Positions 6,377 to 20,493 of a stretch of DNA of 28,622 bases are shown here, piece by piece. A program made the translations under genes and the position numbers. Numbering within the stretch: the stretch's first letter is position 1; every line of letters begins with the position of its first letter. The notes under the pieces were generated by a model. The model did no database searches. It worked only from the letters and a program-made list of their open reading frames with translations, and was not told the origin of the DNA. Source of the stretch: Nitrospinota bacterium (GTDB lineage Bacteria > 2-12-FULL-45-22 > JACOWJ01); assembly GCA_016176845.1 (NCBI GenBank), contig JACOWJ010000045.1, positions 1 through 28,622 on the forward strand, written 5' to 3'.

Positions 6377-6504
6377 GATCAAGTTAAGTTTTAGGTTTTA
6401 GGTTTTAGGTTTTAGGTTTTAGGTTTTAGGTTCCTTGCTTAACACTTAAAACCTGAAACTTAAAACTTTCCCGTAAATCCTGTCAAAAAAGGAAATTCCT
6501 ATGC
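6377..6504 (-). repeat. Dispersed GCATAGG element, copy B, with TTTTAGG tandem repeat
   Basis: Read on the minus strand it starts GCATAGGAATTTCC at 6504 and continues with a body (ACAGGATTTACGGGAAAG and onward) that matches copy 18933-19038 almost base for base. It then runs into a hairpin whose far arm is six perfect TTTTAGG units (6389-6430, plus strand), and ends TAACTTGATC (6386-6377), as copy A does. Confidence 0.8.
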
Positions 6505-10247: not shown

Positions 10248-10280
10248 CTTTTTCCCTCACCCTTGGCTCGCTTCGCGAGA

Positions 10281-10347
10281 ATTGTAAAATGCAAAATGCA
10301 AATTGCAGATTGCAAATTTTCATTTTTCATTTTTCATTTTTCAATTC
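10281..10347. repeat. AAATGC/CATTTTTC word repeat between the two cytochrome b genes
   Basis: Tandem AAATGCAAAATGCAAATTGC-type words on the left face CATTTTTCATTTTTCATTTTTC words on the right, with AATTG/CAATT ends, giving an imperfect hairpin. The same AAATGC words recur at 21541-21703. It sits inside an operon, so transcripts would carry it; it could separate expression of the two subunits. Confidence 0.6.
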
Positions 10348-11112
10348 TTACAGGGGCCCCGAGATCCCTCCGTCTTTCCGGATTCGCCAGAAGTGGAGGA
10401 TCATCAGGGTGCCGGCAACCAGGGGGATCACGATGCAGTGGAGGACATAAAACCGCAGAAGGGCCGGCGGCCCGACCAGGCTCCCCCCCAAGAGCAGGGA
10501 CCGGGCATCAAAGCGGGCGTTGACCCCGACATAGTCGGCGAAGGGCCCCTCATGGCCGAACAGCGGGGTAGCCCGGGCCATGTTGGTCCCTACAGTCACG
10601 GCCCACATGGAGAGCTGATCCCAGGGCAACAGGTATCCGGTGAAGCTGAGCAGCAGGGTAAAGACCAGCAGCAGTACCCCGACCACCCAATTGAATTCGC
10701 GGGGGGGTTTGTAGGAGCCGGTCATAAAGACCCGGAACATGTGCAGCCACACTGTGATCACCATTGCGTGAGCGGCCCAGCGGTGCATATTCCGCATCAA
10801 CATCCCAAAAGGCATGTCAAACTGCAAGTATTTCATATCGGCGTAAGCATATTCCCCTACCGGCCGGTAATAGAACATCAGGACAACCCCGGTGACCACC
10901 GTAACCAGGAACATCAGAAAGGTGATCCCGCCCATGCACCAGGTGAAGCGCATCCGCACTCCGTGGCGGCGTATCTTGGCCGGGTGCAGGTGCAGAAAGA
11001 CGTTGCTCATCACCTGTAGGACCCGGTTGCGTGGGGTATCCTCGTAACTGTGTCGGAAGATGGACTTCCACGCCTGGGATTCAACGACCTTCTTGTTCAG
11101 ATCCTTTAACAC
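10348..11112 (-). CDS. Cytochrome b6-type subunit (cytochrome b N-terminal half)
   Basis: The protein has 254 residues from a GTG at 11112 with AAGGAG upstream. Four membrane helices are visible. Heme ligands are H110 (RNMHRW) and H124 (VWLHMFRVF) in one helix, and H225 (FYVLHC) and H240 ([12 protein letters not shown]) in another. The 14- and 15-residue spacings match b6-type proteins. The Qo-side GYLLPWDQ motif (159-166) is present. It carries the two b hemes of a quinol-oxidising complex with the Rieske protein upstream and the subunit IV-type protein downstream. The gap to the Rieske gene is 143 bp and to the next gene 100 bp, the latter filled by a word repeat. Confidence 0.93.
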
Positions 11113-18264: not shown

Positions 18265-18693
18265 ATGAAGCAGTCACCTTTTTTCGAGGACATCAACGAA
18301 GGGGATGAGATTCCCCCTTTGACCAAGGGACCCGTTACCCGAACCCAGCTGGTCAAGTATGCGGGCGCCTCCGGGGATTTCAATCCCATGCACCACGATG
18401 AGGTCTTCGCCAAGAACGCAGGTATGCCCAGCGTCTTTGCCCATGGGATGCTCAGTATGGGATTCGTGGGGCAGCTGATCACCGACTGGGTGGGTAACGC
18501 ATCCTTGCGGCGCTTGGGGGTGAGGTTCGCCTCGATCACCTGGCCGGGAGACGTCATCACCTGCAAGGGGAGGGTAGTCAAGAAGTACCAGAAGGAAGGG
18601 AAAAACCTGGTTGACTGCGAGGCTTACACCGAGAACCAGAACGGCCAGAAGACCGTCATCGGCACGGCCACCGTGGAGCTGCCCTCTAAATAA
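18265..18693 (+). CDS. MaoC-like enoyl-CoA hydratase / hydroxyacyl dehydratase, catalytic type
   Basis: The protein has 142 residues and follows a long purine-rich ribosome site (AGGAGGAGAAGGAG). The hydratase-2 motif ASGDFNPMHHDEVFAKNAG (35-53) has the catalytic Asp38 and His43, followed by VFAHGMLSMGFVGQL. It would hydrate enoyl-CoA or dehydrate 3-hydroxyacyl-CoA. Pairing with the His-lacking MaoC protein just upstream resembles HadAB-type heterodimers. A role in processing acyl-CoA from the aromatic pathway encoded at 23.5-27.8 kb is possible but not shown. Confidence 0.85.
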   Translation: MKQSPFFEDINEGDEIPPLTKGPVTRTQLVKYAGASGDFNPMHHDEVFAKNAGMPSVFAHGMLSMGFVGQLITDWVGNASLRRLGVRFASITWPGDVITCKGRVVKKYQKEGKNLVDCEAYTENQNGQKTVIGTATVELPSK

Positions 18694-18695
18694 AT

Positions 18696-18910
18696 AGACA
18701 TTATCGCAAATAAGGCCCTAGAAGTGTCATTTCGAGGGCGCGTAGCACCCGAGAAATCTTTATCGGATTGAAATAAGTTTTAGGTTTTAAGTTTTAGGTT
18801 TTAGGCGCTTAAAACTTAAAACCTAAAACTTAAGACCTAAAACTTATTAAAGTCGCTCCGCTCCTTCGAAATGACATTCATGGAGGTTTTATTCGTGATA
18901 ATGTCTATTA
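18696..18910. repeat. Three-layer nested palindrome
   Basis: Outer pair: ATAGACATTATC near 18696-18707 mirrors GATAATGTCTAT near 18897-18909. Middle pair: GTGTCATTTCGAG (18724-18736) mirrors TTCGAAATGACA (18865-18876). Inner pair: TTTTAGG/TTTTAAG words (18778-18803) mirror CTTAAAACCTAAAAC words (18807-18847). The arms of each layer are separated by the next layer. It follows the MaoC gene and may also end its transcript. Confidence 0.75.
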
Positions 18911-18932: not shown

Positions 18933-19038
18933 GCATAGGAATTTCCTTTTTAGACAGGATTTACGGGAAAGTTTTAAGTTTCACGTTTTAAGTGTTAAGC
19001 AAGAAACCTAAAACTTAACACTTAAAACTTAACACTTA
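18933..19038 (+). repeat. Dispersed GCATAGG element, copy C
   Basis: It starts GCATAGGAATTTCC, then ACAGGATTTACGGGAAAG, then a hairpin of TTTTAAG/AACACTTAAAAC words. It matches copy B (6377-6504, opposite strand) nearly base for base through the first ~75 positions, including AAGTGTTAAGCAAG in the loop. Confidence 0.8.
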
Positions 19039-19065: not shown

Positions 19066-20391
19066 CTATCCGACCTTCTGATCCAGCACCCGCTTGACCG
19101 CGTCCAGATCGGGCGAAAGCTCCACGGGCAGGTTGGCATACCGAGGATGGATGTCCCGGAGTCGACCTTCGTGGTAGTCGATCTTGAACTCGGGAAATTT
19201 GAGGCCGTTGGCGGTGGAAATCACTACTACCCGGTCGGTACGCCGGATTTCCTTGCGCTCCAACAGTTTCAGCAGCACGGCGAGGGCCACCCCCGTATGG
19301 GGGCAGTTGAAGAGGCCGGCCCGGTCGGCCTGGGCTGCCGCATTGGCCAGCTCATCCTCGCTGGCCTGTTCCACAATCCCATGAAAGGTCTGGAGGATCC
19401 GAATGGCCTTGTTGATGCTGACGGGGTTGCCAATCTGAATGGCGCTGGCCAAGGTCGGCTGGGCACGAACGGGGTGGTACTCCCGAAAGCCATTTAAATA
19501 GCTGAGATAGAGCGGATTGGCTCGCTGGGCCTGGGCGCAGACGATGCGGGGCAGGGCGTTAATCAACCCCAACTCTTTCATCAACAGAAAGCCCTTGCCC
19601 ACGGCGGTGACATTGCCCAGGTTCCCTCCCGGAATAACGATCACATCGGGGATCTCCCAGTCAAACTGCTGCACGATCTCGATGCTGATCGTTTTCTGCC
19701 CTTCGATTCGCAAGGAATTGATGGAGTTCGCCAGGTAGATATCCTCCTCCGCGCAGACCTTCTGTACGATCTCCATGCAGCCATCGAAATCGGTATCCAG
19801 GGAGAGGACCAGGGCCCCGTTGGCAATGGGCTGAATGAGCTGGGCATGAGAGACCTTGTCCTTGGGCAAAAAGACGACGGCCTGAATGCCCGCTGCAGCG
19901 CAGTAAGCGGCCAGGGCGGCGGAGGTATCCCCCGTGGAGGCGCAGGCCACCGCCCGGATGGGCTTCCCTTCCGCGATCATCTGCTTGACCATCGAGACCA
20001 GGACCGTCATACCCAGGTCCTTGAAAGAGCCGGTGTGGCTGTTGCCACACTGCTTCACCCAAAGATCCTCCACGCCGATCTCTCGGCCAAAGCGCTCGGC
20101 CCAGAAGAGATTGGTTCCCCCTTCGTACATCGAGACCACATTCTCGTTCGCTACCGTGGGGCAGACCCATTCCTTCTTTCCCCAGACGGAACTGCCATAG
20201 GGCCAGGAACTGCGCTTGTAGCGTTCATCGAAGAGCATCATCCAGGCCGAAGGGCTACGCTTGCGGAGCTCCTCGATGTCGTGGACCACATCGAGGAGGC
20301 CGCTACAGCGGCGGCAGCGATAGATCACCTCGGTCAACGGATATCTCTCTTCGCATCCCTCGATACACTGAAACCAGGCCGAATAGCTCAT
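19066..20391 (-). CDS. thrC: Threonine synthase
   Basis: The protein has 441 residues from the ATG at 20391 (GAGGGAG upstream); an in-frame ATG at 20403 is the alternative. It converts O-phosphohomoserine to threonine with PLP. An N-terminal zinc-ribbon-like pair (C9, C13, C26, C29) is common in this subfamily. The PLP lysine is K124 in [10 protein letters not shown], the substrate loop region is [19 protein letters not shown], and the phosphate-binding glycine loop is [11 protein letters not shown]. The C terminus is complete. It is codirectional with the aminotransferase pseudogene and moaA, but repeats separate them. Confidence 0.93.
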
Positions 20392-20424
20392 GATCTCCCT
20401 CATCTTTCGAGAGCGGCCAGCACC

Positions 20425-20493
20425 TCTAGCTCGTAGCTCGTGGCTCATAGCTCGTAGCTCATAGCAGTTAAGAGCTATGAGCTATGAGCTCGT
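20425..20493. repeat. AGCTCAT word hairpin
   Basis: Repeats of AGCTCGTAGCTC/AGCTCATAGC on the left mirror GAGCTATGAGCTATGAGCTC on the right around CAGTTAAG. The 22-bp right arm (20468-20489) is the exact reverse complement of 26184-26205. It supplies the final Ser-Ser-stop codons of the aminotransferase pseudogene. Confidence 0.7.

Follow-up and report, generated by a model that had tools for sequence, protein, structure and literature searches.

Three nested inverted repeats in a Nitrospinota genome: a probable composite of a MITE-like shell, a REP dimer and a heptad palindrome

The window, i.e. the whole 28,622-nucleotide stretch that was analysed (contig JACOWJ010000045.1 of assembly GCA_016176845.1, Nitrospinota bacterium), carries at positions 18693-18909 a nest of three inverted repeats, 217 bp in length, that forms one continuous hairpin. 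Table 1 lists its parts together with the features on either side. The 5' end of the element lies directly behind the stop codon of a MaoC-like gene, the genes on either side are convergent, and no ORF of at least 80 aa exists between 18693 and 19066. A MaoC partner gene was found nearby in none of the 80 relatives of the neighbouring gene. The role of the element at this locus is probably limited to that of a strong hairpin separating the two convergent genes. Twenty-five bases downstream of the nested palindrome comes a copy of element B, a distinct dispersed repeat, and a second copy of it is located at 6381-6503 of the window. Genomes and loci are cited below by our working labels. The window is contig C34 of genome G000 (1.53 Mb, 61 contigs, 68% complete), and of the 60 genomes nearest to it in the collection, one (G001) belongs to the same order. 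Our survey of G000 covered 20 stretches of 20 kb and the window (428 kb), plus targeted loci.

Table 1. Features at and around the nested palindrome, in window coordinates.
Feature	Position	Strand	Remarks
MaoC-like dehydratase gene, upstream neighbour	18265..18693	+	Pfam PF01575
Outer layer, left arm of shell C, AATAGACATTATCGCAAATAA	18693..18713	+	TAGAC at end, TA-flanked; 14 arms in own genome
Shell-internal spacer, left, GGCCCTAGAAG	18714..18724	+	Like spacers of single C arms elsewhere
Middle layer, left REP	18725..18759	+	TGTC tag + ATTTCGA...GAGAAAT + CT; inverted-repeat arm 18725-18746
REP-dimer spacer, left part, TTATCGGATTGAAATAAG	18760..18777	+	Matches heptad-free REP spacer, G265 C31
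Inner layer, left arm of TTTTARG heptad palindrome (with AATAAG)	18772..18803	+	
Inner layer, right arm of heptad palindrome	18817..18848	-	
Middle layer, right REP	18852..18876	-	Without GATTTCTC part, which copy C9 retains; inverted-repeat arm 18855-18876
Outer layer, right arm of shell C	18889..18909	-	
Dispersed element family B, separate neighbour, CATAGGAATTTCC...GACAGGATTTACGGGAAAG + heptad palindrome	18934..19038	+	
PLP-dependent enzyme gene (PALP), convergent neighbour	19066..20448	-	Pfam PF00291

The outer arms are 21 nt long and complementary at 19 of 21 positions (90%), including a 13-nt perfect run; the middle arms pair at 19 of 22 positions (86%) and the inner arms at 31 of 32 (97%). 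The short stretch that separates the outer arms from the middle arms is itself partly paired, so that these two layers become a single long imperfect arm. When the 217-bp element was folded as single-stranded DNA, a single hairpin of -60.5 kcal/mol was obtained, compared with -18.6 +/- 3.3 kcal/mol for 200 dinucleotide shuffles (z = -12.7), none of which reached the value of the element. With the heptads taken out, the longest perfect stem is 12 (13 including the first base), against at most 11 in 500 shuffles. All three inverted repeats of the original prediction are thus present.

We refer to the outer layer as shell C. Its arms occur 12 times in G000 outside the window, while the complete pair exists in the window only. 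At C1, C31 and C61 the arms stop before any REP sequence, and so the outer layer does occur elsewhere without the inner ones. A shell spacer similar to that of the window, GGCTATAGAAG with its close variants, was found in the single arms at C37, C47, C58 and C61. With 21-nt arms, 217 bp and noncoding content, shell C has the dimensions of a MITE (terminal inverted repeats of 15-30 bp, 70-300 bp, noncoding); MITEs have several complete copies per genome, whereas shell C has 14 arms and one complete pair, unlike shells D and S5 described below, which are present as many complete copies. The ends are TA-flanked, and a TA duplication is assumed from those flanks. For neither shell C nor shell D did we find an autonomous transposase. 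An IS630-type transposase (PF13358) was considered and rejected, as there is none in G000 (68% complete) and the other loci have no matching paired ends. At L266:160-195 (C43) and L267:194-226 (C40) there are very short palindromes that resemble shell C (about 24-29 nt; TAGAC...GTCTA, TAGACATT...AATGTCTA) and are candidates for its empty form. The three-layer composite itself is complete in a single copy; copy C9, at another place, has the heptads, the right REP and the right shell C arm in common with it, which suggests that the composite has been mobilised as one piece on at least one occasion.

The middle layer is a REPIN-like REP dimer, TGTCATTTCGA...GAGAAATCT plus its inverse. Complete dimers were found in six of 386 genomes with a strict pattern, and a looser pattern gave more than 60 REP matches in G265 alone, which bears out the claim that this layer is a dispersed repeat of other genomes. 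As in REPINs (PMC3116915), two inverted REPs and a spacer form one hairpin, and the dimer mostly measures 70-82 nt; here, on the other hand, a transposon-like shell surrounds the dimer and no Y1/RAYT gene was found in its own genome (68% complete). Y1 genes are present in G001, G030, G073 and G265, and paired GTCATTTCGA REPs flank none of them, L302 possibly excepted, so the attempt to link REP and RAYT through flanking REPs failed. The dimer resembles the CGTC/TGTC superfamily (PMC3733652) in its TGTC tag, in AT at the stem foot and in its head-to-head arrangement with the tags outside. The superfamily, however, has a stem of 8-9 bp, a loop of 4-5 nt and a CCA tail, whereas here a 5-bp stem is followed by paired GA steps, the tail is CTT and the loop of the window copy reads as longer than 4-5 nt. 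Because stem length and tail disagree, we call the repeat REP-dimer-like on the basis of its sequence, without assigning it to the superfamily. We did not find the GTCATTTCGA REP described as a repeat in the open-licence literature, and the papers that were found appear unrelated to repeats.

The inner layer consists of tandem 7-nt units. The genome has roughly 45 sites at which TTTTARG heptads form inverted arms, and in the 428 kb surveyed there are 49 runs of period 7 compared with 6 of period 8, 20 of the harmonic 14 and none of periods 4-6 and 9-13. Several 7-mer families coexist (TTTTARG, ATTGAAA, AGGGAAC, TTAGGGA and others). At 10280-10351 of the window, an array of another family (AAATTGC / ATTTTTC) has inverted halves, and at L071:9211-9340 the direct and inverted blocks of an array are farther apart than usual. 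Tandem, intergenic 7-mers, often as convergent inverted pairs, are also known from the heptamer arrays of Xanthomonas and Nostoc, the inverted pairs being known in Xanthomonas (PMC4692102); the present heptads differ in being A+T-rich, in having several families per genome and in lying inside a REP spacer. The heptad palindrome is also the core of element A and a part of element B. Only 9 of the 45 heptad palindromes lie inside an outer inverted repeat, namely the window copy, six copies of element A and two at the p = 0.01 limit, so that heptad hairpins do not in general prefer tips. The REP spacer left of the heptads in the window, ATCTTTATCGGATTGAAATAAG, matches a heptad-free spacer in G265 (0 of 2000 shuffles), which suggests that the heptads were added later.

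How the REP dimer is placed carries most of the argument. Twenty of the 26 dimers, found by the REP search alone and counted by hand with the window copy included, are enclosed by an outer inverted repeat (p <= 0.01, flank shuffles), a tally in which copies from the same shell family do not count as independent. About nine shells, unrelated to one another and distributed over six genomes, have the same dimer near the centre: shell C (window copy), shell D (TAGTGYCTGAACGAAAAC, in G000 and G265), shell E (TCGTTTCGGCCA, G000), shell S5 (TGATGGTNTCGTAAAAAGTC, G265), and the shells TAGGAGGCTGTCC (G265), ACTAGTRTANCGTTTCAT (G001), GTAACNGTTCA (G001 and G389), ATGAGTCCACTC (G073) and GAACGTGTGAAAAAAT (G030). 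A candidate tenth shell, TTAACCCYACAAC in G265, is weak (p = 0.06 and 0.58). The outer ends are mostly 24-35 nt from the REP core on each side, with a less even core position in shell E (16/43 nt) and a few others. In the viral contigs the dimers are mostly free, one of seven loci being inside a palindrome, and therefore the dimer can exist without a shell.

The shells in turn hold different cores. Within G000, shell D has the REP dimer at C2, C27 and C57, and at C32, C56, C58, C37, C21 and C61, six loci in all, its core is unrelated and of the CCCTTCGACAAGC type. Shell S5 is MITE-like, with 311 arms in the single 4.9-Mb genome G265; the 29 pairs read comprise 10 REP cores, 18 other cores and one coreless pair of 58 bp. 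S5 copies with the REP and those without it have the leftmost 36 nt in common, and their sequences separate precisely where the REP begins. The coreless pair was the only one returned by a search for short S5 pairs, and no empty D shell was among the pairs read in G000 and G265; empty shells are thus nearly absent. At L363:191-223, in a viral contig, a 33-bp D palindrome (TAGTGCCTGAACGAAAACCCCGTTCAGGCACTA) has nothing inside. In G265, the D left ends at L261, L263 and L273 are followed by one shared sequence up to the contig ends, which may represent a larger element bounded by D ends and present in several copies. REP spacers from the same shell family look alike, as judged by eye from the listed sequences with no score, which points to a few captures followed by spread of the composite and not to a fresh insertion at each locus.

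We therefore favour, at a probability of about two in three, a composite MITE-like element whose shell captured a REP dimer, whose spacer gained the heptads and which then spread as a unit. A short TA-flanked shell C with terminal inverted repeats would have gained the TGTC-tagged REP dimer at its centre, in a rare event that the hairpin geometry may have favoured, and the TTTTARG heptad palindrome would have entered the dimer spacer later. A transposase acting on the shell ends would have moved the composite, which after each capture would have spread as a unit. Because empty shells are almost absent, the assembly order rests on few comparisons. The heptad-free spacer of G265 agrees with the stepwise nesting originally proposed; the spacer likeness within shells points to few captures, each followed by spread of the composite.

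A possible, though on the whole unlikely, alternative is that REP dimers and other small elements insert repeatedly into the exposed loops of palindromic MITEs. In its general form, which is just as tentative, TGTC-tagged REP dimers would prefer the single-stranded tips of many unrelated palindromic MITEs, the MITEs would be REP carriers and the nests would record successive single-strand insertions. The central REP dimer in about nine unrelated shells agrees with this, as do the coreless S5 pair and the empty-looking D palindrome. Mobilisation of REPs by RAYTs is thought to use single-stranded DNA, with a putative REPIN excision reported (PMC3116915), and PMC3733652 mentions REP dimers within palindromes of Anabaena variabilis and Halothiobacillus neapolitanus. 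A further point in favour is a 101-bp dispersed element that sits in the REP spacer at C2, while C27 has the same spacer without it. A second full-length copy of this element, at C7, has ends identical to those of the C2 copy. However, the copies read follow CAAT or CAATA with no evident duplication and only the C2 copy is in a loop, so that sequence rather than shape seems to pick the site; judged from these junctions, the insertion resembles that of the IS200/IS605 type. Against the alternative stand also the scarcity of empty shells, the lack of heptad enrichment in tips, the free dimers of the viral contigs and the spacer likeness, which suggests one founding event per shell. In the lone empty S5, moreover, CA from the end of the REP is still present, and this copy may have arisen by deletion. 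The idea that elements insert specifically into hairpin tips is therefore partly supported, for the REP layer only: the 20 enclosed dimers in their roughly nine shells speak for insertion into the centres of older elements and the C2 locus for insertion into a loop, while the heptads, the CAAT(A) sites and the mostly free viral dimers do not. It stays unproven because empty shells are almost absent.

It is unlikely that the nests arose by module shuffling, in which recombination or template switching between palindromes would swap ends and cores with no REP transposition. S5 and D do each have several unrelated cores between common ends, at C37 a heptad array is joined both to a different core and to a right arm of shell C, and C15 (L079:2600-2800) is an apparent hybrid in which an E-like left flank and a D-like right flank surround a single REP dimer. 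Nevertheless, the shells share no homology outside the REP from which recombination could start, and the first transfer into each shell would still require an insertion. Quite improbable is the retention of REP and heptad hairpins by selection as two-way transcription terminators between convergent genes, a role that could be read from the very stable hairpin directly behind a stop codon; other copies read (C61, C7) are just upstream of genes, and such a function would account for retention, not for assembly. Chance or a single fixed three-layer unit is virtually excluded, with no point in its favour found, since both shuffle tests rule out a match at chance level and shell, REP dimer and heptads were each found without the others, in line with the expected distinct repeat family for each layer.

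The composite MITE-like element has several partial parallels. The longer palindromes around REP dimers in A. variabilis and H. neapolitanus take up one paragraph of Di Nocera et al. 2013 (PMC3733652), where palindromes without the REP were not found in these organisms. The likeness lies in the REP dimer inside a longer palindrome; here, one REP family is held by about nine unrelated shells in six genomes, one and the same shell occurs with different cores, and the dimer itself encloses a third layer. Insertion sequences that target REPs are also known (IS1397, ISKpn1 and IS621; PMC1525189). They likewise are mobile elements inserting into a palindromic repeat, whereas here the REP dimer is the inner element of an outer palindrome. 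What is new, with regard to the open-licence literature, is one REP family in many shells, the exchange of cores within shells and the third nested layer, and earlier descriptions may exist.

Few repeats in bacteria are as common as REPs, and the way in which they spread is still debated. If they travel in the centres of transposon-like shells, where they occur would be governed in part by other transposases besides RAYTs, which may account for REPs in genomes that yielded no RAYT. The pattern of many shells with one core makes target choice by small palindromes testable.
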